Source: Chitinophagaceae bacterium (GTDB taxonomy: Bacteria > Bacteroidota > Bacteroidia > Chitinophagales > Chitinophagaceae). Taken from it: a stretch of 64,000 nt of DNA. The stretch lies in NCBI GenBank assembly GCA_947458275.1, contig CANGYR010000007.1, forward strand, positions 62,001-126,000, in the 5' to 3' direction. The stretch's first letter is position 1, and the number at the start of each line of letters is the position of its first letter. Positions 43,114 through 62,971 of this stretch are shown piece by piece. The notes beneath the pieces are model-generated. The model was given only the letters and a program-made list of their open reading frames with translations. It was not told where the DNA came from and did not search any database. The position numbers and the translations under genes were made by a program.

Positions 43114-43449
43114 CTAATACATCAGCGCTCTCTTTGAAGAGTTTCTCCAACCTGCATAACTTTCCCTGTCGACAAAATAAATTTTTAAATCCGCGTACGA
43201 CTCTCTGTCAACGAAATAAATCTTTTTTTTAGCGTAAGATTCACGATCCACAAAAAACCATTTCCCATCGTTATTTCCCGCATAGCTTTCTCTGTCTACC
43301 TTATAGACCAGTAAATCGGCATAGCTTTCACGATCAACTACAAAGACCTTTACATCTGCGTAACTCTCTCTATCTACCGAATATACCTTTTGTGCCTTAA
43401 GTTCGTTTAGGCTTAATAGAATGATTGAGATTAATAATAACTTTTTCAT
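43114..43449 (-). CDS. Secreted six-fold VDRESYA repeat protein (DUF6150/Septknot-like)
   Basis: The ORF track starts with GTG at 43455; I use ATG at 43449. The 111-residue product has a signal peptide ending at about residue 20 (LLLISIILLSLNELKAQ). Then come six copies of VDRESYA at 25-31, 38-44, 51-57, 67-73, 80-86 and 93-99, alternating with short hydrophobic strands such as DLKIYF. The spacing is 13, 13, 16, 13 and 13 residues, symmetrical around one longer spacer. The repeat resembles the DUF6150 family, which from memory is linked to a deeply knotted fold (Septknot); this needs a profile search. No cysteine and no catalytic motif were seen. Neighbours give no clue. Confidence 0.8.
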   Translation of the reverse strand: MKKLLLISIILLSLNELKAQKVYSVDRESYADVKVFVVDRESYADLLVYKVDRESYAGNNDGKWFFVDRESYAKKKIYFVDRESYADLKIYFVDRESYAGWRNSSKRALMY

Positions 43450-43506: not shown

Positions 43507-44535
43507 TTAGGCAATAGTCCAGGTTTCGCTTCCTCTCAATAATTTATCCAAATCACCTTTACCTTTCTGTGCAATGATTTCTTCAATTTGCATGGTCATG
43601 ATGTCTTCATAACAAGCTCTTTCGGTTTCGTAGAAAACGCCGAATGGACGGGGAAGATGCCCTTGTATGGTGGGATCGTCAAACATTCTGACCAGTATCT
43701 GTGCTTTATAAAAATCTCTTTCATCGTGTACCCATAAATCGTCGGTACTTGCTCCTTCGGTTAAATCAACCACAACGGGTTTGAATCCGTCAAGCTTGAT
43801 GCCCTTGCTTTGATTGGCTCCGAAAATAAGGGGTTTGCCCTGCTCCAGGAAAATAGCCTCATCAACCTTGGTTCCTTTTTCGGTAAATATTTCAAAAGCT
43901 CCATCATTGAAGATGTTGCAATTCTGATAGATTTCTAAAAATGAGGCACCCTTGTGTGCATTAGCTCTTAACAACATTGCCTGCAAATGCTTGGGGTCTC
44001 TGTCCATAGACCTGGCTATGAAACTGGCATCTGCACCCATTGCGAGCGCAAGCGGATTAAAAGGATGATCAATGCTTCCAAAGGGAGTGCTCTTGGTAAT
44101 TTTATGCTCCTCTGATGTGGGAGAATACTGTCCTTTAGTCAGACCATAAATCTGATTGTTGAACAACAATATGTTTACATCAAAATTTCTTCTTAATAAA
44201 TGGATGGTGTGATTACCGCCAATGCTCAATCCATCGCCATCTCCCGTTACTATCCAAACACTCAGTTCGGGACGTGCTGCTTTCAAACCGCTCGCAACAG
44301 CCGTAGCTCTTCCGTGGATGCTGTGCATTCCATAGGTATTCATATAATATGGAAAGCGGCTACTGCAACCAATACCCGATATGATGACGATGTTCTCTCT
44401 GGGAATGCCTATGGTGGGCATCACTTTTTGTACCTGTGCAAGAATGGAATAATCACCACAACCCGGACACCAGCGAACTTCCTGGTCGGTTGCGAAATCT
44501 TTTGCCGTTAATGCCGGAGCAACTGTCTCACTCAT
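43507..44535 (-). CDS. korB: 2-oxoacid:ferredoxin oxidoreductase, beta subunit
   Basis: This is the thiamine-diphosphate-binding subunit of an enzyme that oxidises 2-oxoglutarate (or a related 2-oxoacid) with ferredoxin. The 342 residues show WCPGCGDYSIL near the N-terminus, with cysteines of the cluster and cofactor region, then GIGCSSRFPYYMNTYGMHSIHGRA, and GDGDGLSIGGNHTIHLLRRNFDVNILLFNNQIYGLTKGQ, which binds magnesium-ThDP. The 2-oxoglutarate call follows the usual naming of this group. The alpha/gamma subunit normally lies next to it, but here the neighbours are a divergent transporter and the repeat protein. Any korA gene must be outside the window. Confidence 0.92.
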   Translation of the reverse strand: MSETVAPALTAKDFATDQEVRWCPGCGDYSILAQVQKVMPTIGIPRENIVIISGIGCSSRFPYYMNTYGMHSIHGRATAVASGLKAARPELSVWIVTGDGDGLSIGGNHTIHLLRRNFDVNILLFNNQIYGLTKGQYSPTSEEHKITKSTPFGSIDHPFNPLALAMGADASFIARSMDRDPKHLQAMLLRANAHKGASFLEIYQNCNIFNDGAFEIFTEKGTKVDEAIFLEQGKPLIFGANQSKGIKLDGFKPVVVDLTEGASTDDLWVHDERDFYKAQILVRMFDDPTIQGHLPRPFGVFYETERACYEDIMTMQIEEIIAQKGKGDLDKLLRGSETWTIA

Positions 44536-47400: not shown

Positions 47401-50400
47401 TTACTGAATAACTACTTTTTCTGTTTGTTTGATCTCATTGTTTGAATAAACTACAAGAATATATTCACCACCACTGAGACGTTTCTTGCCTTTCAACTCC
47501 AGCGAGTAGGATGATGTCCCTCCGGCATGTTGTAACACATTGCTGTATACTCTTTGTCCTGATACTGTTGTCAATACTACCTGGTATCTGCCGGACTGCT
47601 GGTCTTGCAATTGTAGATTAATTTTTCCATTTGCAATAACATTAGGATACACCCGAATCTGCGCATTTCCCAACCATTGTGCCTTAACCACGCTGCTGTA
47701 TGTGTAACTTCCGCTCACATCATTGCTGCGGATACGATAGTAATTCCAGCCGGTTAATGGTTGGTTATCCATTATTGCATAATCACGCAGACCGGAAGTA
47801 TTTACCGCTGCAACACTGTTCACTTTAGCAAAAGACACGCCGTCCGCACTTCTCTCCACATCAAAATCTTTCACTCCGCTCACATTCGCTGTCTGCCAGC
47901 TTACGGCTATGCCATCGGCTTTTTTCTGTGCAGCTACTTTGGTGAAGCGTACAGGTAATGTAACAGCATTTTTAAATACTAGGATAAATCTGTCTGAACT
48001 GATACCCATTCCTGCATTGTCTATAGAGAAATTATAGTCTGTAGTAGCACCGCTCATATCAATTGGAGTAGATTTTTTGGTCAGACGATCTATCAATACC
48101 GCTGACTCTATTTTCGCATCCCAATCTGTTGTATTGATTCTTAACGTATAACTACGAACACCCAGATTCCAGAATGAGAAGTAAACCGTATCCGTTGTGG
48201 TAGGTATTGGGCGACTTTCAATACTTAAGTATCGATTATCACGTAAAATACTCAGATTCTCAGCAAACGCATTTAGCTTGGCTACATCAAAAGTCTCATC
48301 GGATGCCTTATCATAATAATCATTCAATCTCACTTTAACCCCATCGAGTAATAGACTGCCGGCGGCACCATCATGAAGATTCACATTGATTTTTGTTATC
48401 GCACCTGTAAGGCCTCCTGTAGGATACGTTCTTAAAGCATAGCCATTAGAGCTAACCTTATTGCTTTCTTTAATGGTAATAGATCCGCCGCCACTCTTTT
48501 CAACAAAGAAGGCCTGGCCGGATTGTACTTTGAGGTAATCCAATGGCGATCCAGGGCCTCCGGTCATATCATAAGAAGACGATCCATCCCAACCTATTGA
48601 ACGATAACCACCAAATGTACCCATTGTAGCATCCCATATCCAGAAATTACGTTCAATCTTAGCGCTATTGCCGGAATTGAGGTACATCGAATTTAAATCA
48701 ATTGCTGATGCATACGGATTACCCACAACCTCAAATGGATTGCTCACTGTAACTGTCCTATCTCCAGTTTTAAGTGTTCCGGTTGGACGTAAAGTAGTAT
48801 TTGCATTACCAAAGAAAGTAACAGTTCGATCTCCTCTTACAAACAACATGTATCCTTGTTTGTCAGGAGCTGCTGTTGTGGTTGGCGTGTTGGTAGCAGA
48901 ATACCAGTTATCATTTTCATAGAATCTTATAGAAGATGTTGCAACGTTACTCAATCCGCTAAACCAATCGAAGCCCGCTGCTGCTGCTGCCGTACCATTA
49001 GGATATGTAGCTCCGTGTCCTGTAATCAACGTTCCAGATCCTGCACTTTCTCCTGTGGGTGCATTGGCATTGGCATTAGCTCCTGCCCACGCCTGACGGA
49101 TAGTTGGTCCTGTTACAGGTATCGTTAGCAATCTCCAAGCGCGTCTGCCGCTACCTATATAACGCTCTACTGTAACACTGGTAGCACCATTTAAAGTACC
49201 GGTAATCTGACCAATGGCAGCAGTACCTGCAGCAGTTGATTTTAGTGTAACAGGAAGGCCACCGAAATTGGCGGTACCGGCAACAGTGAAGGTAATGCCC
49301 GGGTTGATTGTAAGAGATCCGGCAGCTACTGTGAACGTTTTACCCGATCCAACAGTAAAATCATCATCTATTGTCGTTGGGTGTGATATTGTTATGTTGT
49401 TGGTACTAACCGGTGGCTGAACCGCCTGAACCCATCCGTTACCATTGTTATACTCCCAGCCTGAACCGCTGCTAAAGTTTGCTGATGATGCTCTGGTACG
49501 GAAGCTGGCAAGGCCTATGTCTTCCCACTTCGCGTATAGGGTAACATTAGATGCGGTGCTCATCGTATAACTTGCCTGGTTTGCATAGGCTACTGAACCG
49601 CCGCTGCTTGTTGCCCATCCAGTAAAAACATAACTGGTACGGGTAAACGAATTGGTTGTTAGGTTGGCTGACGTGCCAAATGTAATTGATTGAACTGACA
49701 TAGATCCGCCATCAGAACCATTACCATTAAAAGTAATTGTATAGTCATTTGTCGTCCACTGAGCATACAAAGTTACATTTGAAGTAATGGGGAATGTAGA
49801 GGCCACAGCGCGCGAAGTACCGCTGCCATCTGCTGCCGTATTCCAGCCGGCAAATTCAGAGCCTGCTTTAGCTATGGTGCCTTCATTCTTAACAGTTACT
49901 GTGGTGTTATAGTTATAGGGGCTGCTTGCGTCAGATTGAGAACCCGAACCGCCGTTGGCATTATAAGTAACTGTAAAAGTATTTATTGTCCATTGAGCAT
50001 ACAATGTTACATCTGAAGTAATAGAGAAGGTTGAGGCTACAGCTCGAGATGTACCGCTGCCATTCTGAGCTGTATTCCATCCGGCAAAGGTATAACCTGT
50101 TTTAGCTATGGTGCCCGCATTCTTCACTGTTACCGTTTGATTATAAGTATAATTTGTTGCGTCACTTTGACTGCCTGTACCCGTATTCTCATCATAGGTA
50201 ACGTTGTAATTAATAGCCGTCCATTTAGCATACAAGATTACATTAGCTGTACCCATATTGAAGGTCTCTCCGGGATTATAGCTTGTTCCACTACCATCTG
50301 CAGCTGTATTCCATCCGTTAAATATATAGCCGACTCTTGCAACTGTTCCCGCATTTTTTACTGTTACTGTTGAATCGTAATCGTATGGGCTATCGGAATC

Positions 50401-53400
50401 TGACTGAGAGCCACTGCCGCCGTTAGCATTATAAGTTACCGTGTAGCTGTTAATCACCCACTTCGCAAATAGTGTGGTGTTTTCAGCAGGAATGGTAAAG
50501 GACGCGCTGCCAGTTGCTGCATAATTATTACCGGATCCGTCAGCTTCTGTATTCCAGCCCGAGAAGGTATAACCAGTCCTTGCCAAATTGCCTGTATTTG
50601 CACTTACGGTTTGAGATGAGCCAAAACTGTATGTGCCACCGGCTGGAGCCGTTCCTGTGCTATTGAGATTTCCACTGTAGTTCAACGTATAAGAACCGGT
50701 AGACCACTGAGCATACAAAGTGATATTATTTGCCGGCATATTAAAGTTGTCTCCTGTACCATAGTTATTACCACTACCGTTTGCTGCTGTATTCCAGCCG
50801 GCAAAGGTGTTTCCTGTTTTAGCAAGGGTATTCGGTCCGCTGACGGTTACTGTTGTGTTATAATCATAGTCAGCCTGATTGGGCGCAGATCCACCTGTAC
50901 TTCCGTTGCCATTATAAGTAATTCTATAGCTGTTGATTGACCATTCCGCATATAGAATTACGTTAGATGCATCCATAGTAAAGGACCCCGTTCCTGCGGG
51001 AAGATTTGTACCACCACCATTAGCTTGTGTATTCCAACCCAAAAATGTGTACCCGGCTCTAACTAAACTTCCTGAGTTAGACGACACAGTAACATTTGTA
51101 TTATAATTATGATTGGTTGTGGATGGCTCTGTTCCTCCTGTTGCGCCATTACCGTCATATGTAACAGAATAGCTGTTGATCGTCCACTTAGCATAAAGCG
51201 TAACATTGGAAGAAATAACAAAGGTTTCTGTTGCATTGTATGTTGAACCGGTTCCATTCGCTGCAGTATTCCAGCCGGCAAATGTGTAACCGATTCTGGC
51301 AATAGTTCCGGAATCCTTTACTGTTACTGTTGAGTTGTAGTTATAAGGACTGCTGGCATCTGGCTGAGATCCTGTGCCACCGTTATTATTGTATGTAACC
51401 GTGTAGGTGTTGATAGTCCACTGTGCATATAATGTAACATCAGAAGCGATGGAAAATGTTTCTCCCGCCTCTCGAGATGTACCACTTCCGTTAGCTGCAG
51501 TATTCCATCCGGCAAAGGTATATCCGGTTCTTATCATTGAGCCCGCACTCTTAACTGTTACCGTTGAATTATAGTTGTAAGGACTGCTGCCATCTGATTG
51601 AGAGCCGGTGCCCCCGTTATTGTCGTAAGATAGGGTATACGTATTAATTGTCCATTGAGCATAAAGGGTAACATCAGATGTTCCAATAGCAAAAGTTTGG
51701 TTGGCAGTATAGGTTGTCCCGCTGCCGTTAGCTGCCGTATTCCATCCGGCAAAAGTATAGCCGGTTTTGACTATTGTACTTTGATTTTTAACCGTTACTG
51801 TTTGATTATAAATATAATTTGTAGCGTCTGACTGACTTCCCGAAGTAGCTCCGTTATCATCATAAAAAACATTGTATGGTATGGCAGTCCATTTTGCGTA
51901 AAGGGTTACATCGGCTGCGCCCAGGTTAAACGTTTCTCCGGCAGTATAGGTTGTACCGCTGCCATTCGCTGCCGTATTCCATCCGGCAAAAGTATAGCCG
52001 GTTTTGGTGAGCGATCCTGAATTAGAAGCCGCCGTAATCTCAGTATTGTAATTGTAGTTAGTTGAAAGCTGTGGTATATCCCCTCCTGTATTTCCGTTGC
52101 CATTGTAAGCAAAGGTGTATTGATTAATTGTCCATTTAGCAAATAACGTGGTGTTTTCAGCAGGTATGATAAAGCTGGCACTTCCTGTCGCGGCATAATC
52201 AGTACCAGACCCGTCAGATTCTGTATTCCAGCCAGCGAAGGTATAACCAGTCCTTGCCAAATTGCCTGTATTTGCACTTACGGTTTGAGATGAGCCAAAA
52301 CTGTATGTGCCACCGGCTGGAGCCGTTCCTGTGCTATTGGAATTTCCACTGTAGTTCAACGTATAAGAACCGGTAGACCACTGAGCATACAAAGTGATAT
52401 TATTTGCCGGCATATTAAAGTTGTCTCCTGTACCATAGCTGGAACCGCTGCCATTCGCAGCAGTATTCCATCCGGCAAATGTGTTTCCTGTTTTAGCAAG
52501 GGAACCTGGTCCGCTCACAGTAACAGATGCATTGTAATTATAGTTCGCTGATGCGGGAGCCGATCCACTTGAATTGCCATTTCCATTATAAGTGATGGTG
52601 TAGCTATTGATGTTCCATTTCGCATATAATATTACATTGCCAGCACCCATTGTAAAGGTTCCCGTACCTGCAGTATAATTGGTGCCGGTTCCATCTTCGG
52701 CTGTATTCCATCCACCAAAAGTATATCCGGTTCTAACAAGAGTTCCAGAGTTGGCTGATACGGTAACCGTTGAATTGTAATTATGATTAGTGGAAGACGG
52801 CTCTGTTCCTCCTGTTGCGCTATTACCATCATACGTTACTGAATAACTATTGATTGTCCATTGTGCATATATGGTAACATCTGAGGTAAATGTAAAATTT
52901 TCGGCAACCAAATAAGGAGTACCACTTCCGTTGGCTGCGGTGTTCCATCCGGCAAATGAATAGCCAGTTTTCGCGAGCGAGCCGGAATCAGATATCGCTA
53001 CTGAAGTATTATAGTTCTGCGTAACAGCAGTTGGGGCAGAACCTCCTGTGTTTGTATTGCCATTATACGTTAGTGTGTAAGAGTTGATTGTCCACTGTGC
53101 ATATAATGTTACGTTTGATGTTACAGAGAAAGTAGAGGATACCGCACGTGCTGTGCCACTTCCATTAGCAGCTGTGTTCCAACCGGCAAATGTATATCCG
53201 GTTTTAGTCATAGTTCCTGCATTCTTCACCGTCACGGTTGCGTTGTACTCATAATCTGTGGCATCTGTTTGACTGCCGCTTCCTGTATTTTCATCGTAGG
53301 TTACTGTGTAGGTTTGTATTTCACCGATTGCATAATAGCCAACACCCTGTCCGGCTGGAGAGGTGATTGCTCCGGATGCAACCGTCTGCGGTGTTCCAAC

Positions 53401-56400
53401 AGACACATAAGTTCCGGCTTGATTATTGTTTGACTTGGCAATCACATGTGTGCCATTTGTCATGTCTGTTTCAGTAATGGCAAGAGTGGCTGAAGTGAAT
53501 AATGCGGTTGTAATCTCCTCAATTCTCCAGTTTCTTGCACTGAATAAAGTAGTTTTAATGGTAGTATTGTTTCCCGTTGTTGCACCAGTTGATGCAAATG
53601 TTGCGCGCACAACCGGGTTTCCTGGAGCCACTACTGATTGAAGTGTTACAGGACGATAGAAAGAAGACCCCCCGATAGGATATGTATAACTGGTTGCATT
53701 AGCAAGGGTTCTGTCCAGTGGTCCATTTACATAACTGGATGTACTACCACCGGAAATTGCACCCGTTGCTGAACTATTGATGGTTAATTTGTTTGTTGAG
53801 GTAGTGGTAAGAATACCTGAAGTTAGCGTCAGTGTACCAGCAACCGTTGTGGCTGAACCAAGGGTAACACCACCTGTACCGTTCATGGTAAGGTTATTCA
53901 CATTACCACTGAATACAGAAGCGGGCAAGGTAAGCGGGTCTGTATTGGTAAAGGTAATAGTTGAACCGGTGCTGGCATCAATCGTACCACTGGTACGCGC
54001 TATGGAGCTGCCCGAGTATGTCAATGTGTTTGTGCCTACTGTAAACGTACCATTCGTTAATGTTAATATACCGGTTACTTTTAACGCATTACCCAAAGTA
54101 ACCGTGCCTGTGGATGTACGATTGATTGTCAGGTTATTTAATACATTGGTAGTGCCGGGTGTGGTTTGATCAAACCTAACAGTACCCAATGCCCCTGTGC
54201 CTAATATAGTAAGCGAAGAACTACTGCTGCCTTTGATAAAACCGGAGCCTGTTATTCCTGATCCCACAGAGCCTTTTCCAAGAGTAAGTGTGAAATCGTT
54301 TAGATTCAGGGTGTCTGTTGTGTTGGTAAGTGTGATGGCATTACCTCCATTAGGACCTTCCACCAATAAATTGCAAAGCATGCGGATAGACCCTGAAGCT
54401 TTATCCGATACGATATAATCAATATTAAATGTGCCGGATCCGCTTACATCCTGGGTGCCTGTTCCTGTAAAGAATACAGCCCGGTTATTGGAGTTGAATG
54501 TTGCATTATCCACCAAACTGCCCGTGATTTCAAGATCACCACCACCAACTGTTGATAAAGTGACCGTGCCAGAGCTGTTGGTAAAATTAGCGCAACGCAA
54601 ACGTCCGTTGGCATCTCCCATAGAAAGTGTGCCACTATTGGTAACATTACCGGTTACCACCACCACTTGTGTGATTGGCGCTGTATTGATTTTAGCTGCG
54701 ATGGTAAGCGTACCGCTATTGCTTATATTGCCTCCAATGTACAACACAGCATCTTCTTTCGCACCCGTTGCGAAAGTAGCTCCGGATGCAATGGTAAGAG
54801 AACCATTGATAGCTCTGTTTGTGGTCGCATCACCGTTTAGTAATGTATAGAAGCCGGAGTTAATAGTTACATTATTTGGATAACCTACGGTCGATCCTAT
54901 TGTGCCTATCCCGCTGGCGCTCCACTCCGTTGAGCGGTTATAATTTGAATTATAGAGTAGGGTTGAATTAGCAGAATATCTTGGAGCGGCTGAAACAAAG
55001 CCACCATTAATTCTCAGTGTACCATCTATTGTCGGAATAGTAGTTAATGTTACCGCACCTGTATTGATGGTGAAATTATTGAAGGTAATAGCAGCACTAC
55101 CATCCACTGTTGCCGCGCCGGCAAAATTGACAGTTCCAGCTCCACGCGTAAATGTTGAATTATTGGTAAGCGTACCAGATGCTGCAATTGTTAATGTACC
55201 ACCTGCTGTCATCACAACGGATCCATTGTTAGTAACGGTAGTAGCCGTAAGCGCACCACTGGCAACGAAGGTGAGTGATTTTGTGCTGTTAATGGTTACA
55301 GATGAAGGCGCATTTGTTACAGTGCCATCCACAGTTACAGCGTGATCAATCGTCACCGTAGCTCCGGCAGTAGGCAAGGCGTTGCCTGCCCATGTACCGG
55401 TAGTATTCCAGTCACCTGTGCCTGCGGTAATATGACCCAGGAAGTTAAAGGCACTGCTGGCACTTGAACTCGCGGTCGGGTTGTTCACCACCACGGTAGT
55501 ACCACTAACGGCAGCGCCGGTATTGGCTATAGTAGCGGTAATAGACGTACTACTTTGAGCGGTTATTGTTGCACTTACGCTGTTTATACTTACAGTAGCA
55601 TTTGAAGCAAAACTGGTTCCGTTAATTGTAATCGATTGTCCGGAGTAACCTGAAGCCGCGCTGAGTGATGCAATAGACGGACTAAGCAAAGTACTCATCA
55701 CAAAGAAGTTGGAATTTCCTAATGAAATAGCACCAATTGCATTGGCCGTACCATTGATAGTTGTTCCGCTGGCGGATCCTCCGATAGATGCGTATGCGCC
55801 GCTCTGAGCGGTACTTCTTCCTATTACATTCAGAGAACCTAAAGCCGATTGGCGGGTGATATCTGCTCCACCATTTGAAAAGTTTCCTGATACAACATTC
55901 AGTTGCCAGTACTCGGATGTGCTTATTGATGAAAGAACATTTGGATTATCAATAGATCCACCGGCACTACCCGAATTAGCAGTTACCTGCAGTACCGGAC
56001 CTGTTGCTCCGGTAGTAGGATTATTCAAAGTAAATGGAAGATACGTTGAACCTGATCCTACTGGGAATGAGAAGACATTAGATGCTCCAGTCAAATTTGG
56101 AGCCAATGTTCTTCTCAACGGACCATTAACAAATGTTGTTGTAGATCCGCCTGTGACGGCATTAGTTGCTGTATTGGTTACGGTTAATGTATTTGATCCC
56201 GTGGTTAGGTTACCAGAGTTCAGATTTAAAGTGTTCGTAACAATGACTGGGGTTGAAGCAGCCAAAGAAACTCCTCCACTTGTGTTACTGATTTTAAGGA
56301 TGGCAAAGTTGTTAGATGAACCTTCCGTACCAAAAGATCCGGTGATGGTTTGCGCAGCGCCTCCCAAAAATTCCACCATTCTTGATGAAGGCGTGAAAGT

Positions 56401-59400
56401 ACCATTATTAGTAAAATTACTGCCCACATACAGATCCCCTCCGGAAGCACTTGAAAGTGTCAAACCACTGGATGCACTGATAGTGACATTTCCGTTTGCA
56501 CGTCTATACGATCCACTGGATCCAAATGACAATGTAGTATTTACTCCATTACCAATGGTTACATTTCTGGGCACACCGACTCCTGAGGCAGCATTGGCTG
56601 TCCACTCAAATCCGGCGGTATAAGTTCCTCCTGAATTATAAATCAAGGTAGAAGAAGATCCATAAGTAGGTAATTTAATATCAGCCGTTGAGCCGCCGGA
56701 CATCGTACCATTTCCACGCACATAACCATTGGAGTTAATCTGCAACGTACCATCTACTGTGAATGTGCCATATTTTACCAGAATACCTCTTTGAAGAATG
56801 AGCGTACCTCCGCTATTAACATTCACCGATACGAATTTTTTCTCATCATCATCTGTCGTTGTAGCATCACCCGTAAAAGTGGTAGTAGAACCACTTGCAA
56901 TGGCTAATGTCAAATCATTGCCAAATTCATTATCTGTTCCATAAACTCCACCTCCAGATGTAGTGCTGACAGTAAATGTTTGTGTGCTTCCGGCCATTGT
57001 AAGTGTATTTCCTCCGGTAGATTGTAAACCTCCGCTAGTAATTGTTACGTTACCGGTCAGACTTCTTGCTCCCGCAAGTTGTATCCAAGACCCATTAGTA
57101 AGCGTCAGATTAGCCGGACCACTTGTGGAAGGCCATTCCAGCGCCTGAGTTCTTCTGCTTGCAAAATTACCACCATGGTTATACTGTAAAGTAGAAGATG
57201 AACCGAATAAAGGACTTCTCGTTGCAATAGAAGAACCGCTATTAACTTGTAGCGTTCCATTGATAGTAGTACCTGTACTTGGTGTGAGTGCTCCATTAAT
57301 AGTTACGTTGTTGAATGCAACTGTACCGGTTACAGAACCTGTACCTGCAAAGGAGAAAGTACCGGCATCTGTACCAGAGGCCAGCGCACCTGATGTTTGA
57401 GCAACTAATGTATTAATGGTAACTGTATTTGCACTACCTACTGTAAGTGTACCGGATGTAAGGTTTAGGGTACCCATCGTGGTATTACCGCCCAGCGTTA
57501 CACCGCCTGATCCGTTAACGGTAAATGTAGATACTGTACCGCTGAATAAAGATGCAGGTAATGATAAAGATGACCCCGTATTTGTAAATGCAACAACAGC
57601 CGATGCGTTGCTTGCATCAATATTTCCATTGGTTCTTGAAATAGATGAACCGGAGTAAGTGAGTGTATTGGCTCCGGTAGTAAGTGTACCGTTGATAAGT
57701 GTAAGATTACCGCTGATGGTTATTGCGCTACCAAGAGTTGCAGTACCTGAACTTGTCCTGTTGAGTGTAAAGTCTGCAATTCTGTTGGTGGTACCACCAG
57801 CAGTAGCATCCAAAAACAAAGTACCCAATGCACCAGTTCCGGTGATGTTCAAATTGGAACTTGCAGAACCTGTAATGTTGTTTGTAATACTCATAGAAGC
57901 CACCGTACCGGCTAGGTTCAATGTGTTAGAACCGATACTTAATCTACCTGCAGTAAATGTTAGTGCACCATTAATAGTAGGTGAACCGGTCAAGCTAAAT
58001 CCACTTCCGTTTAAAGTCAGGTTTTGTAAAGTAGCACCTGAAATGGTTTTTGTTGTTCCTGTCATTGTGATACTTCCCGCACCAGTATGTGTAGCTGTAC
58101 CGGCGATGTTACCTCCTACAGACAAAATATTTCCGGCATCGGCAAGTGTACCAGCTGTAAGTGTAAGGTTTCCTGTTAATGATCTATTGGCCGATCCGAG
58201 CATAGTTACCGTACTACCACTGTTGTCAACGATCAGATTAGCAGGTCCACTACTAGCAGGCCATTCAATAGCGTTGGTAGTTCTTGTTCCAACATTTTTA
58301 TATTCCAACGTACTGGTTGATCCATAAGTTGGAGCTGTGGATGCAAGTGTAGCGGTACCTTGAAGTGAAAGCGTACCACTAACCGAATAAGCACCATCCG
58401 GCGTTTTTGTATTTGTACCAGTTCCGGATAAAGTTAAGTTTGTATATGCAGCTGCTCTTATAGGCTGCGCACCGGACCTTGAATACTCTACCGTTGCACT
58501 AGTACCATTTAGAGTAATGGTATTTGTTCCATCTGTATCCAGCGTAAATGGTGTAGTTCCTGTTAATCTCAGAGTACCAGTTTGAGCTCCGGATAGCAAC
58601 GAAACAGTCGCGACAGTAACAGGAGATACTACAGGATGTACAGTGGTAATATCCGTAGCAGTAACTGTACCGCTTTGGATATTAAAAGTGGGATTGATAT
58701 TACTAGTAGACTTCCTTGCTGTTAATGTTATTGTTCCTGAACAAGTAAGCGCATTAATTGAACTGGTTAGTGTGGCCGTTCTTGTAGCAGCTGCGCTTGT
58801 AGCTGACGTTGTTCCAATTCCTACGGTTGCACACGTTAAAGTTCCGCCTCCTGAAATTGTACCCGCATTATTTTGAGAAGCTGACTGTTCTACTTCCACA
58901 GATGATGAAACGGATAATTGTTGTCCGGCATCAACAGATAAAACTCCTCCTGTGCCCGTAAATGACACTTTTTTACAAGAAGCACTTGCAGTCACAGTAA
59001 CCTCATGTGTTGACGCAATAACCACATTATCAAAACTTGTCGGCACAATACCTCCCACCCACGTACCGGCACTGTTCCAGAACCCGGAAGCATTGGAAGT
59101 AATTGTTGTAGAATTCACTGGTGTTATCTCTCCTGAAGAACCGCTTGACACAAACTCTGCGCCAGTATTTGCGTAGCCGCTGAATGTGAATGCATCTAAT
59201 TGAGTTTGTCCTAACCCCGTGTTATTTGTAAAGAAAATTCTACCGGCAGTTCCCGCATTTCCTGCAGTCGTTGCCCAATTACTTACTGTAATTGTTTTTG
59301 ATCCGGTCCATGATTCTAATGCACTTGATGCAAATGTAATTGAATGACTAGTTGATGCAGCTAATGCAATGGTTGAATTTTCCTGAACCAATAATGTTGA

Positions 59401-62400
59401 AGAACTAGTGAATGTTCTGGTTGCTGTTATTCCTGTAGTTCCCAATCTACCTCCGTTTAATACTATTTTTGAAGCGAAAGTGGCATTAGCTGAAGGATTC
59501 AATCTGAGTTCACCGCTGGTGATGGTGGTGTTACCTGTATATGTGTTAGCAGAGTTTGTGAGAATGAGTGCAGCTGTAGAGAGGGTGCTATTAACAATAA
59601 TTCCTCCCGTACCGGAGATAACTCCGGAAAGAGTTAGTCCACTACCGGAAGCGGCAGTACTCGTAAAAGTAAGGTTGCCGTTTAGAGTTATGTTGGAAGA
59701 AATAGTTGGACTTGAGGTGCTTTGATTTTCAATTGTACCACCACCAGCAGCAACACTGGTCAGTGACGAGGACAATGTTCCTCCAACGCCGGTCCAATTA
59801 AATTTACCTGATGTCGTTGCTGTGCCCAAACTAAATGATCTACTTCCTAATCTTACAGAACTAGAAGTAGTCAAAGCTCCTTGAGCTATAACCCAACTTC
59901 CAGTATTGAACGAAGCTGTATTATCTGAAAATGCAATAGTAAGATTGCCGATACCAACTTTAGTAAATATAAATCCACCTGAGTTTGTTATTTGATTAGA
60001 TGTCACAGCGCTTGTACCAATAGTCAAGTCTCCACCACCACCAACACTGACATCTGAGCCGAGTGTTAATGTACCACTCCAAGTAGCACTACCTGTTGAG
60101 TTTATGAATGCACCTACGGAGGAAATTCCCGTTCCATTGATGGTAAGTGCTTCTTGCGTGGCTAAAGAATAACCATTTAAATCAAGCACCCCTCCCGAGT
60201 TTACTGTGGTTGCACCTCCAGTAGTTCCCAAAGGCGTATTTGAACCCGAACCTGCTGCTCCTAATTGTAAAGTACCTGCACTGATGGTTGTGGCGCCTGT
60301 ATAGGTACTCGCGCCCGATAAAGTAGCAGTTCCGTTTCCGTCCTTTGTAATTGTACCAGTTCCGATATTGGTTGTACCGGAAATGGCAATATTACCTGCA
60401 CCGCCAAGGGTCAGTGCAATATTCGTTGAAGCAATTGATGCTGCATTACTCAGCGTAAGAGTGCCTGCATCAGAATTAATTCTAGTAGCATTGGTGGAAA
60501 GTGTAATAGCACCGCCCCATGTATTATTACCGGAAATATTACGCAAAGAACCACCGCTTGAAATACCCGTATTATTAATCGTTAATGTTTCCGCACCAAC
60601 AGTAATCCCCCCTTGCAATTCTATTGCAGCACCGGAAGAAACCACCACACCACCGGCTGTAGTACCCGTACCCTGAGCGTTTTGAACATTGAGAATACCC
60701 GCTGTTACGTTTGTTTGACCAGTGTAAGTATTGGTTCCGCTGGCAACCATTTTACCAGCACCAGCTTTATCGAGTGTAAACGCACCACTTATCACGCCAC
60801 TCACCGTTAAGTCAGTAGCCGCATTTGTATCATCAGCAACCGTTATGGTTCTGTTGGTACCCAATGCTACCGGACAAGAAATAGTTGCGCCATTTGCTCC
60901 GAAGCCTGAGTTGACTGTAATATTTCCACCAAGTGTAAGCGTGCCGGATGATCCACTTATAGTAGAACCAGTTGCACCGGTTTCAACAACAACAGAAGAT
61001 GGAGAGCCGATATTGAAAGTTGATAAAGCTAAAGTAGTACCGGCACGAACTGTAAGTGTGCTATTCACAGTTTTATTGCTGTTCAATGTAACATTGGTGC
61101 CGCTATTTTGGATAGTTACGTTGGGCACATTTGTTGTTGGCCATTCAATACTTGATGCAGTATAATTACCTCCATTATTATAAACAAGTGTGCCACTAGC
61201 TCCGTAAGTAGCTGCAGCACTTCCGGAATTCATATAGCCATTAGCATTAATTTGAAGAGTACCATTAACAGTAAAGGTTCCGTAACGACAAAACAAACCT
61301 CTACTCAGGCCTAATGTAGCACCTGAATTTACATTTACGGTAATGAATTTTTTATCAGCATCTGAAGTTGTAGTTGCATTTCCATCTAATGTGATAATTC
61401 CGCCGGAGACAGTTAGCGTCAAATCATTACCTGAACCGGCATCTGTTCCCGTTACCGTACCTCCGTTCGTATTATTAATTTGTAAGGTTCCGGTACCATC
61501 AGCGCCACTCATAGTAAGCGTCTGTGCTCCTGAAGTTCTAAAGTCACCATTGTTAACTACAAGGTTTCTCCTAACTGTAATTCCGGTGCTTAAAGTAGTT
61601 GTTGTACTTCCACCATTTACGGTATAATCATATAAAGTTGTCGGTTGAGTATTATTATAACCAAAAGTTGCTCTGGTTTCAAAAGACTGGTAGTTAGAAC
61701 TGAAAGGGTTTGTTGTTCCTGAGTTTGTCGTATTAACAACTGTTTGATAAAAATAAAAACGAGGAGATGCGGCATTACCACTTGGATTACCTGTTGCTGG
61801 TCTTACATCATAAATACCCGTAGAATAAGCACAAAATCCTACCCAGTTAAATGCAGTTGGTCTACCAGGTAAAAGTGAACCTGTAGTCCAGGGAAATCTA
61901 ATTGTACGTGTAGGACTTCCACTTGTACCCACATTTCCTGATGAAATATCTACCTCTGTATTCCATCCACCAGATCCATTTCTTGTTGAATAACCTAAAT
62001 AAGTTGGAGTAATAACCAATCGTATATCTGCTCTGAAGGGTAATGTTCCCGTAACACCATAATCGGTTGTTGTCGTAAGGTTACCATTGCTGTTGGTCCC
62101 TCCGGAAACACCCCCATTTGCAGGTGATAAGGGATCAATATCAAGATATACAAAACACGCCTCACCTGCAGCACCTCCGGTTTTTCCAATGTATAGATAA
62201 GTATTATCCCAGCCCATAAACCATGGAGTTGAGTTACCGTACGAACCAAAAGTAGCATCTGTTGGTGTACTTGTTAATGTTGGGGCGGATGATAAAAACT
62301 GAGCACTTGCAAATCTTGAAAAGAAACTAAAAATAACGAGAACTAAAATAAATTTCACATTTAATTTCTTCAAAGTATTTGCCTTAAAACCAGCATTCAC

Positions 62401-62430
62401 AATCATTTCAGAGCGTGTAAAAATATTCAT
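47401..62430 (-). CDS. Giant T9SS-secreted repeat protein (about 5,009 residues)
   Basis: This is a probable cell-surface or secreted adhesin. The ORF-track start at 62622 is unlikely; I use the ATG at 62430, whose product has a signal peptide (KFILVLVIFSFFSRFASAQ). Residue numbers below follow the ORF track. An N-terminal beta domain covers about 109-325. Then about 2,000 residues of autotransporter-like beta repeats (SGTNTYTGQTNVTAGIL, LNLTSGTLTV and similar) build a long solenoid. An IPT/TIG domain lies near 2313-2395, followed by a TGDWNTTGTWAG-type unit and more solenoid. Sixteen InlB B-repeats occupy about 3104-4368. The C-terminal part includes YIGSGRRAWRLLTIPV, and a T9SS sorting domain (about 4985-5073, VYPNVIANGKIN ... 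EQTEKVVIQ-like end). No enzymatic domain was seen. Confidence 0.93.
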   Translation of the reverse strand: MNIFTRSEMIVNAGFKANTLKKLNVKFILVLVIFSFFSRFASAQFLSSAPTLTSTPTDATFGSYGNSTPWFMGWDNTYLYIGKTGGAAGEACFVYLDIDPLSPANGGVSGGTNSNGNLTTTTDYGVTGTLPFRADIRLVITPTYLGYSTRNGSGGWNTEVDISSGNVGTSGSPTRTIRFPWTTGSLLPGRPTAFNWVGFCAYSTGIYDVRPATGNPSGNAASPRFYFYQTVVNTTNSGTTNPFSSNYQSFETRATFGYNNTQPTTLYDYTVNGGSTTTTLSTGITVRRNLVVNNGDFRTSGAQTLTMSGADGTGTLQINNTNGGTVTGTDAGSGNDLTLTVSGGIITLDGNATTTSDADKKFITVNVNSGATLGLSRGLFCRYGTFTVNGTLQINANGYMNSGSAAATYGASGTLVYNNGGNYTASSIEWPTTNVPNVTIQNSGTNVTLNSNKTVNSTLTVRAGTTLALSTFNIGSPSSVVVETGATGSTISGSSGTLTLGGNITVNSGFGANGATISCPVALGTNRTITVADDTNAATDLTVSGVISGAFTLDKAGAGKMVASGTNTYTGQTNVTAGILNVQNAQGTGTTAGGVVVSSGAAIELQGGITVGAETLTINNTGISSGGSLRNISGNNTWGGAITLSTNATRINSDAGTLTLSNAASIASTNIALTLGGAGNIAISGTTNIGTGTITKDGNGTATLSGASTYTGATTISAGTLQLGAAGSGSNTPLGTTGGATTVNSGGVLDLNGYSLATQEALTINGTGISSVGAFINSTGSATWSGTLTLGSDVSVGGGGDLTIGTSAVTSNQITNSGGFIFTKVGIGNLTIAFSDNTASFNTGSWVIAQGALTTSSSVRLGSRSFSLGTATTSGKFNWTGVGGTLSSSLTSVAAGGGTIENQSTSSPTISSNITLNGNLTFTSTAASGSGLTLSGVISGTGGIIVNSTLSTAALILTNSANTYTGNTTITSGELRLNPSANATFASKIVLNGGRLGTTGITATRTFTSSSTLLVQENSTIALAASTSHSITFASSALESWTGSKTITVSNWATTAGNAGTAGRIFFTNNTGLGQTQLDAFTFSGYANTGAEFVSSGSSGEITPVNSTTITSNASGFWNSAGTWVGGIVPTSFDNVVIASTHEVTVTASASCKKVSFTGTGGVLSVDAGQQLSVSSSVEVEQSASQNNAGTISGGGTLTCATVGIGTTSATSAAATRTATLTSSINALTCSGTITLTARKSTSNINPTFNIQSGTVTATDITTVHPVVSPVTVATVSLLSGAQTGTLRLTGTTPFTLDTDGTNTITLNGTSATVEYSRSGAQPIRAAAYTNLTLSGTGTNTKTPDGAYSVSGTLSLQGTATLASTAPTYGSTSTLEYKNVGTRTTNAIEWPASSGPANLIVDNSGSTVTMLGSANRSLTGNLTLTAGTLADAGNILSVGGNIAGTATHTGAGSITMTGTTKTISGATLQNLTLNGSGFSLTGSPTINGALTFTAGRLSIGSNTLNLAGTVASMSITNNITGSASSNLNITGTGALGTLFLDATAGGTTNRIADFTLNRTSSGTATLGSAITISGNLTLINGTLTTGANTLTYSGSSISRTNGNIDASNASAVVAFTNTGSSLSLPASLFSGTVSTFTVNGSGGVTLGGNTTMGTLNLTSGTLTVGSANTVTINTLVAQTSGALASGTDAGTFSFAGTGSVTGTVAFNNVTINGALTPSTGTTINGTLQVNSGSSIATRSPLFGSSSTLQYNHGGNFASRRTQALEWPSTSGPANLTLTNGSWIQLAGARSLTGNVTITSGGLQSTGGNTLTMAGSTQTFTVSTTSGGGVYGTDNEFGNDLTLAIASGSTTTFTGDATTTDDDEKKFVSVNVNSGGTLILQRGILVKYGTFTVDGTLQINSNGYVRGNGTMSGGSTADIKLPTYGSSSTLIYNSGGTYTAGFEWTANAASGVGVPRNVTIGNGVNTTLSFGSSGSYRRANGNVTISASSGLTLSSASGGDLYVGSNFTNNGTFTPSSRMVEFLGGAAQTITGSFGTEGSSNNFAILKISNTSGGVSLAASTPVIVTNTLNLNSGNLTTGSNTLTVTNTATNAVTGGSTTTFVNGPLRRTLAPNLTGASNVFSFPVGSGSTYLPFTLNNPTTGATGPVLQVTANSGSAGGSIDNPNVLSSISTSEYWQLNVVSGNFSNGGADITRQSALGSLNVIGRSTAQSGAYASIGGSASGTTINGTANAIGAISLGNSNFFVMSTLLSPSIASLSAASGYSGQSITINGTSFASNATVSINSVSATITAQSSTSITATIANTGAAVSGTTVVVNNPTASSSASSAFNFLGHITAGTGDWNTTGTWAGNALPTAGATVTIDHAVTVDGTVTNAPSSVTINSTKSLTFVASGALTATTVTNNGSVVMTAGGTLTIAASGTLTNNSTFTRGAGTVNFAGAATVDGSAAITFNNFTINTGAVTLTTIPTIDGTLRINGGFVSAAPRYSANSTLLYNSNYNRSTEWSASGIGTIGSTVGYPNNVTINSGFYTLLNGDATTNRAINGSLTIASGATFATGAKEDAVLYIGGNISNSGTLTIAAKINTAPITQVVVVTGNVTNSGTLSMGDANGRLRCANFTNSSGTVTLSTVGGGDLEITGSLVDNATFNSNNRAVFFTGTGTQDVSGSGTFNIDYIVSDKASGSIRMLCNLLVEGPNGGNAITLTNTTDTLNLNDFTLTLGKGSVGSGITGSGFIKGSSSSSLTILGTGALGTVRFDQTTPGTTNVLNNLTINRTSTGTVTLGNALKVTGILTLTNGTFTVGTNTLTYSGSSIARTSGTIDASTGSTITFTNTDPLTLPASVFSGNVNNLTMNGTGGVTLGSATTVAGTLTLTSGILTTTSTNKLTINSSATGAISGGSTSSYVNGPLDRTLANATSYTYPIGGSSFYRPVTLQSVVAPGNPVVRATFASTGATTGNNTTIKTTLFSARNWRIEEITTALFTSATLAITETDMTNGTHVIAKSNNNQAGTYVSVGTPQTVASGAITSPAGQGVGYYAIGEIQTYTVTYDENTGSGSQTDATDYEYNATVTVKNAGTMTKTGYTFAGWNTAANGSGTARAVSSTFSVTSNVTLYAQWTINSYTLTYNGNTNTGGSAPTAVTQNYNTSVAISDSGSLAKTGYSFAGWNTAANGSGTPYLVAENFTFTSDVTIYAQWTINSYSVTYDGNSATGGTEPSSTNHNYNSTVTVSANSGTLVRTGYTFGGWNTAEDGTGTNYTAGTGTFTMGAGNVILYAKWNINSYTITYNGNGNSSGSAPASANYNYNASVTVSGPGSLAKTGNTFAGWNTAANGSGSSYGTGDNFNMPANNITLYAQWSTGSYTLNYSGNSNSTGTAPAGGTYSFGSSQTVSANTGNLARTGYTFAGWNTESDGSGTDYAATGSASFIIPAENTTLFAKWTINQYTFAYNGNGNTGGDIPQLSTNYNYNTEITAASNSGSLTKTGYTFAGWNTAANGSGTTYTAGETFNLGAADVTLYAKWTAIPYNVFYDDNGATSGSQSDATNYIYNQTVTVKNQSTIVKTGYTFAGWNTAANGSGTTYTANQTFAIGTSDVTLYAQWTINTYTLSYDNNGGTGSQSDGSSPYNYNSTVTVKSAGSMIRTGYTFAGWNTAANGSGTSREAGETFSIASDVTLYAQWTINTYTVTYNNNGGTGSQPDASSPYNYNSTVTVKDSGTIARIGYTFAGWNTAANGTGSTYNATETFVISSNVTLYAKWTINSYSVTYDGNGATGGTEPSTTNHNYNTNVTVSSNSGSLVRAGYTFLGWNTQANGGGTNLPAGTGSFTMDASNVILYAEWSINSYRITYNGNGSTGGSAPNQADYDYNTTVTVSGPNTLAKTGNTFAGWNTAANGSGNNYGTGDNFNMPANNITLYAQWSTGSYTLNYSGNLNSTGTAPAGGTYSFGSSQTVSANTGNLARTGYTFSGWNTEADGSGNNYAATGSASFTIPAENTTLFAKWVINSYTVTYNANGGSGSQSDSDSPYDYDSTVTVKNAGTVARVGYIFNGWNTAADGSGTSYNPGETFNMGTANVILYAKWTAINYNVTYDENTGTGSQSDATNYTYNQTVTVKNAGTIAKTGYTFAGWNTAQNGSGTSRAVASTFSITSDVTLYAQWTINTFTVTYNANGGSGSQSDASSPYNYNTTVTVKNEGTIAKAGSEFAGWNTAADGSGTSRAVASTFPITSNVTLYAQWTTNDYTITFNGNGSDGGSMSVQSITFGTSANLTTNSFTRTSYVFTGWATSSGGSVAYANQASYTMSTASNVTLYAKWEDIGLASFRTRASSANFSSGSGWEYNNGNGWVQAVQPPVSTNNITISHPTTIDDDFTVGSGKTFTVAAGSLTINPGITFTVAGTANFGGLPVTLKSTAAGTAAIGQITGTLNGATSVTVERYIGSGRRAWRLLTIPVTGPTIRQAWAGANANANAPTGESAGSGTLITGHGATYPNGTAAAAAGFDWFSGLSNVATSSIRFYENDNWYSATNTPTTTAAPDKQGYMLFVRGDRTVTFFGNANTTLRPTGTLKTGDRTVTVSNPFEVVGNPYASAIDLNSMYLNSGNSAKIERNFWIWDATMGTFGGYRSIGWDGSSSYDMTGGPGSPLDYLKVQSGQAFFVEKSGGGSITIKESNKVSSNGYALRTYPTGGLTGAITKINVNLHDGAAGSLLLDGVKVRLNDYYDKASDETFDVAKLNAFAENLSILRDNRYLSIESRPIPTTTDTVYFSFWNLGVRSYTLRINTTDWDAKIESAVLIDRLTKKSTPIDMSGATTDYNFSIDNAGMGISSDRFILVFKNAVTLPVRFTKVAAQKKADGIAVSWQTANVSGVKDFDVERSADGVSFAKVNSVAAVNTSGLRDYAIMDNQPLTGWNYYRIRSNDVSGSYTYSSVVKAQWLGNAQIRVYPNVIANGKINLQLQDQQSGRYQVVLTTVSGQRVYSNVLQHAGGTSSYSLELKGKKRLSGGEYILVVYSNNEIKQTEKVVIQ
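49521..53313 (-). repeat. Sixteen tandem InlB B-type repeats within the giant gene
   Basis: Each unit of about 74-82 residues ends in LYAQWT, LYAKWT or a close variant and contains GYTFAGWNTAANGSGT. Units 3-5 match 10-12 and units 7-8 match 14-15, so the array has a seven-unit super-period. The tract is the likely adhesive or spacer part of the protein. Confidence 0.9.
50563..50764. repeat. 202-bp near-identical block, partner at 52237-52438
   Basis: The two blocks differ at 2 adjacent-region bases only (TATTGAGATTT against TATTGGAATTT), while the flanks are more diverged. The offset is 1,674 bases, exactly 558 codons or seven repeat units. Confidence 0.9.
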
Positions 62431-62971
62431 AAAAGATTTTTTATTTTTTTCTGCACAAGAATTTTTAATCGCAAGATTGTTGATAACATTGTTAACAACG
62501 ACACACGAATCGTTTAAAATCTGTCCGAGATTTTGCATAAAACAAGCATGTTTTGATAAAAAATAAATTAATCTGTGATGATTAATTGGGTGTTTTCGGA
62601 AGGATATGTGGTTGAATTCCAACGTTAAATTACAGTTAATTTTGAAAAAAAAAACTTTTTACCACTTTTTTTTAAAAATATGTGTTAATTGTTTAATCTT
62701 TTCGAGTGGTTTTGACAAAAGATGTGTTGAAAAATGGATTAAGAATATCATAAATATTAGAAACCATATCAATGCATCGCTACGGAGTGATTCATTTAAA
62801 CAATATTAAGATTGTATATATGTAATGGTCTAATGAAATTGTTCCAAACAGGTAAAACATAGGCATTTTACCAGAAAATAGTGGAATAATTTGTAATGAA
62901 AATTGGTAAAAGAAGGTGATAAACGCAGAAAATAGACTAAAGCTTATACATCAATAGTGAAAATAACTCAA
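62431..62971. other. Gene-free stretch upstream of the giant gene
   Basis: The 541 bases are AT-rich and hold the leader and promoter region of the giant gene. The plus-strand ORF 62606-62809 is Asn/Lys-rich without protein-like features and I reject it. An inverted repeat lies at 62479-62499. I saw no RNA gene and no clear -7 box with correct spacing. Confidence 0.6.
62479..62499. promoter_or_regulatory. Inverted repeat upstream of the giant gene
   Basis: GTTGATAAC-ATT-GTTAACAAC is a 9-bp inverted repeat with one mismatch and a 3-base spacer. It lies 49 bases upstream of the chosen ATG, in the region where a promoter or operator would be. Confidence 0.35.

Follow-up and report, generated by a model that had tools for sequence, protein, structure and literature searches.

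The 64,000-nucleotide stretch of Chitinophagaceae DNA analysed here (the window) encodes a DUF6150 protein that is exported and has about 92 residues in its mature form, for which we estimate a probability of roughly 70% that it folds as two interwound coils forming a torus knot, with ladders of motif positions keeping its repeat copies alike. Repeats 1–3 and repeats 4–6 would be wound into each other as a two-start solenoid, and the 16-residue central step would carry the chain back across the sheet to its opposite end. Such a winding combined with a returning central step would make the chain a torus knot, either 7_1 or, if the tail does not supply one further wrap, 5_1. Running down the sheet, the motif positions would form ladders, which would disfavor a change in a single copy unless its neighbors changed too; selection on the protein would hold the six copies alike, while synonymous codons would drift or stay different. 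We place a little short of even odds on the broader reading, which makes DUF6150 a torus-knotted family, exported and widespread in Bacteroidota and relatives, whose interwound halves force the six copies to coevolve without DNA homogenization, leaving the contact map recorded in the sequences.

The gene (43114–43449, minus strand, as are all features of the protein given below) is a real open reading frame of 111 codons followed by a TAG stop, and its product reads MKKLLLISIILLSLNELKA-QKVYSVDRESYADVKVFVVDRESYADLLVYKVDRESYAGNNDGKWFFVDRESYAKKKIYFVDRESYADLKIYFVDRESYAGWRNSSKRALMY, the signal peptide preceding the mature part. The hydrophobic N-terminal signal peptide (MKKLLLISIILLSLNELKA, about residues 1–19, 43393–43449) has its putative cleavage site at ...LKA/Q and displays the lowest pLDDT of the full-length model; the mature domain spans residues 20–111 (43117–43392). 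Translation places six exact VDRESYA heptads at residues 25–31 (43357–43377), 38–44 (43318–43338), 51–57 (43279–43299), 67–73 (43231–43251), 80–86 (43192–43212), and 93–99 (43153–43173). Between the third and fourth heptads, the central linker GNNDGK (residues 58–63, 43261–43278) carries a three-residue insertion separating the halves, with Gly62 and Trp64 invariant in the family alignment (A1). The C-terminal tail GWRNSSKRALMY (residues 100–111, 43117–43152) comprises a two-residue strand bridge and then a helix, as assigned by DSSP from the models. A preliminary description of this DNA had portrayed a secreted, cysteine-free protein of about 90 residues with six VDRESYA repeats in a mirror-symmetric 13-13-16-13-13 spacing, and the translation confirms each of these points, with heptads starting at residues 25, 38, 51, 67, 80, and 93, not one Cys in the protein, and a mature part of 92 residues. 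Its further statement that nearly the whole mature protein consists of repeats holds for the 13-residue units (78 of 92 residues) but goes too far if only the heptads are counted (42 of 92). When the mature sequence was shuffled 20,000 times, a repeated heptamer appeared in a single trial, and never in more than two copies; with 19,999 shuffles lacking any repeated heptamer, the repetition lies far beyond chance.

The same description had likened the motif to DUF6150, an assignment borne out by the Pfam profile PF19647 (E 3.7e-25, 88.2 bits against a cut-off of 27), of which the protein covers positions 6–97 of 98, a full-length match. Judged by sequence, the protein is an unambiguous member of this known but uncharacterized domain family, to which it adds a genuine new sequence. 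The exact 13-13-16-13-13 spacing recurs in 210 of 236 relatives, and in another 21 the middle step is 15 or 17; the symmetry is a family rule, since the three-residue insertion splits two three-repeat halves. The six-unit layout and the central GxW insertion are common to the family and the window protein, whereas VDRESYA in all six copies sets the latter apart, RESY occurring in no other of the ~239 collected members. The nearest relative, from Fluviicola (L092), is 76% identical. Within the window's own genus, 23 of 93 genomes have a member; in the other samples the counts were 43 of 299 (its order), 17 of 297 (its phylum), 72 of 398 (the order of G594), and 25 of 197 (the class of G502), with none among the 14 control genomes. 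Most named relatives belong to Flavobacteriales, Chitinophagales, Bacteroidales, and Ignavibacteria. The phage, plasmid, and viral collections searched yielded no relatives, an NCBIfam search returned no family match, and a literature search retrieved no papers directly on DUF6150. In InterPro the family now goes by "7(1) septoil knot domain"; the name "Septknot" is absent from the Pfam version searched and was not found in the literature searched.

Several individual family members merit a remark. Two metagenome bins, one titled Competibacteraceae (L101) and one Anaeromyxobacter (L110), contain DUF6150 genes close to Bacteroidota ones, which reflects either transfer or a binning error. For some matches (L014, L040, L053, L055, and others), the search reported in-frame stops within the matched region; in those examined, the frame stays open until shortly after the last unit, so these stops seem to mark where shorter members naturally terminate. 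One DUF6150-like protein (L059:985-1701, minus strand) lacks a signal peptide; its five KYAYEAD-type units are spaced 13 residues apart, and it also has a serine-rich linker, a probable transmembrane segment, and a weak match to a bacterial SH3 domain just under its Pfam cut-off.

The most interesting aspect of the window protein is the concerted change of its motif. Across the family, motif positions +1 to +4 are 0.78 alike within one protein against 0.52 between proteins, and the latter value stays at 51–53% whether the same or different repeats are compared. Strand positions of the 13-residue units behave in the opposite manner, agreeing in 60% of cases for the same repeat between proteins, against 29% for different repeats and 33% within proteins. 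The window protein is the most extreme instance: 12 of its 22 differences from the Fluviicola protein are the changes Y→R and Q→Y, each made in every one of the six copies. The host genome encodes a second DUF6150 copy (L016, G000:C12:55005-55262) built of six T-x-YKS(E/D)A units and lacking the C-terminal helix tail. Both paralogues are thus uniform inside but differ from each other in motif, which speaks against an effect of overall genome composition.

These observations could also be accommodated if the motif ladder served to bind a partner, such as a polysaccharide or some other periodic ligand, and the concerted change were driven by ligands that differ between lineages rather than by packing. 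An exported, cysteine-free protein with identical copies, a paralogue with a different motif, and a Y/F column conserved in every strand would all suit such a role, but the Pfam and NCBIfam searches matched no ligand-binding families, no conserved neighbor or operon was found, and the covariation between specific repeat pairs described below fits packing equally well. We regard a ligand-driven motif as unlikely, though not far-fetched.

The case for interwound coils begins with the predicted structure. AlphaFold2 modeled the precursor with a mean pLDDT of 92 (46 sequences) and the mature part with a mean pLDDT of 97, a pTM of 0.85, and each residue at 90 or above (104 sequences). The models consist of six units, each a short strand leading into a helical (3-10) turn of three residues at the ESY positions, and end in the two-residue bridge G100-W101 and the C-terminal helix. 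In both Foldseek runs against the PDB, the sole matches above noise were chains of Q9PR55 (8IWA/8IWB/8JRM) from Ureaplasma urealyticum, to our knowledge the most complex knotted protein known. In the second run these chains took ranks 1–4 with probabilities of 0.92, 0.91, 0.75, and 0.44, the next unrelated entries reaching 0.06–0.07. The weak remainder of that run consisted mostly of SPOUT-type methyltransferases, which are trefoil-knotted, and ordinary solenoids were missing from the list. A BFVD fold search gave only noise.

The 7_1 knot of Q9PR55 was predicted by Brems et al. (PMC9278004) and confirmed crystallographically (PMC11223836, PMC13352647). The window protein resembles it in size and in a locally matching strand-turn pattern, but differs in being exported and in having the three-residue central insertion. 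Superposition on Foldseek's own alignment, which is perhaps one repeat out of register, is poor (TM 0.32–0.39, rmsd ~10 Å over 73 columns) and falls short of the TM > 0.5 expected of a shared global fold. In toy backbones, two interwound folds aligned one repeat out of register gave an rmsd of 9–13 Å, and a sequential solenoid compared with one interwound order gave about 10–11 Å; because a register shift and a different topology both reproduce it, the poor rmsd decides nothing. Neither phmmer, queried with the window protein, L059, the L059 repeat domain, and a family-like consensus, nor three profiles searched against all PDB chains matched 8IWA, 8IWB, or 8JRM, indicating no detectable sequence homology. 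A probable homologue of Q9PR55, P73136 (112 aa), has an AlphaFold-predicted 5_1 knot (PMC9278004), which illustrates that this fold type is predicted as either 5_1 or 7_1. AlphaFold is reportedly blind to topological barriers (PMC10672856).

Covariation within the family provides a second view of the fold. Pseudo-likelihood couplings (220 sequences, effective number 73) and mean-field couplings (a larger set, of up to 229) were compared at equivalent positions of the repeats. By pseudo-likelihood, repeat pairs 3-4, 1-4, 2-5, 3-6, 4-5, and 1-5 are the most strongly coupled and pairs 1-2, 2-3, and 1-6 the most weakly, and couplings across the halves exceed those within them (Mann–Whitney p 0.025). 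When all 360 strand orders are scored, the two-start order 4-1-5-2-6-3 ranks 10th, and third on strand positions only, while half-alternating orders fill 16 of the top 36 places against 3.6 expected. The mean-field preference is modest (rank 30 for the two-start order against 90 for the sequential one); over 150 bootstraps, 4-1-5-2-6-3 beats the sequential order in 95% and the other two-start order does so in 80%. Taken together, the sequence covariation is suggestive of two interwound halves and disfavors a simple sequential solenoid, without fixing the strand order. The G100-W101 bridge fits a seventh strand pairing with strand 3 in 4-1-5-2-6-3, and the sequential order also permits a seventh strand.

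The main structural competitor is an unknotted single-start beta/3-10 solenoid with its coils in sequence order, whose match to Q9PR55 would reflect shared local strand-turn geometry only. The low global TM to Q9PR55 speaks for it, as do the tandem 13-residue strand-turn units expected of a simple solenoid and the high (3,4) and (4,5) couplings. We nevertheless consider it improbable, given that by pseudo-likelihood the sequence neighbors 1-2 and 2-3 show the weakest coupling (14.0 and 14.5) whereas 1-4, 2-5, and 3-6 belong to the strongest pairs (about 23.5), that the sequential order ranks 237th of 360, and that ordinary solenoids are missing from the Foldseek matches. Toy coordinates were used here and above to gauge only possible topologies and the effect of a register shift on TM, and prove nothing: the sequential order came out unknotted, two-start orders with the linker outside formed knots (for the most part 5_1 or 3_1, and in some closures 7_1), and two-start orders with the linker inside were mostly unknots. 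Since the last class is interwound and mostly unknotted, covariation alone is no proof of a knot. The highly knotted fold suggested in the preliminary description thus stands in part, with a confident model that matches only the 7_1-knotted Q9PR55 in the PDB and covariation that argues for interwound halves, set against a poor superposition. The modeled protein is likely knotted, a reading drawn from fold match and covariation; in view of the superposition and the lack of sequence homology, we do not file it as a 7_1 knot and say only that in all likelihood it behaves as one.

The codons of the repeats bear on how the motif is kept uniform. Codon identity among the six window heptads is 0.276, compared with 0.413 ± 0.062 expected from host codon usage (P 0.005), with both AGY and TCN codons used for Ser and both AGR and CGT for Arg. 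Homogenization at the DNA level, through gene conversion or recent tandem duplication, would readily yield six exact copies in one gene and family-wide homogeneity within proteins, but is very unlikely, as the six copies differ in codons beyond chance, including in the codon class used for Ser and for Arg, between-repeat codon identity is near background in 214 genes (0.518 versus 0.479, no repeat pair raised), and the repeat-specific strand half of each unit would confine conversion tracts to ~7 codons ending precisely at the motif borders. Gene conversion between the halves was likewise rejected as a source of the i/i+3 covariation, codon identity not being raised there. With motifs homogeneous within proteins, strands repeat-specific, and codons divergent, concerted change appears to proceed through selection on the protein, and we infer that this selection, most simply the ladder packing of neighboring coils, best explains the uniform motif. 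Concerted motif change of this kind would offer a clean case of repeat homogenization by selection alone.

We know of only one protein for which a 7_1 knot has been established experimentally. Should DUF6150 share this fold, it would supply hundreds of homologues, natural and exported, whose internal repeats are nearly perfect, for studying how so complex a knot folds, evolves, and crosses a membrane unfolded before re-tying.

The genomic surroundings of the gene are less distinctive. A TPP-binding 2-oxoacid:ferredoxin oxidoreductase beta-type gene (43507–44535, minus strand) lies 57 bp upstream, and cotranscription with it is possible, though relatives do not preserve this arrangement; on the other side, an enoyl-CoA hydratase gene is oriented convergently with the DUF6150 gene. 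The surrounding sequence shows no conspicuous promoter or terminator, and no constant partner accompanies the family, neighbors being shared only inside close clades. As to function, our guess, a tentative one, is that the protein may be a very stable periplasmic or surface domain that presents identical side chains, arranged as a regular ladder, to some partner or polymer. Elsewhere in the window, a 5073-codon open reading frame (47401–62622, minus strand) with many GYTFAGWNTAANGSGT-type repeats looks like a giant surface protein; its C-terminal 999 residues, the part searched, gave a Pfam match to Flg_new (Listeria-Bacteroides repeat), and its C-terminal region resembles a type IX secretion sorting domain.
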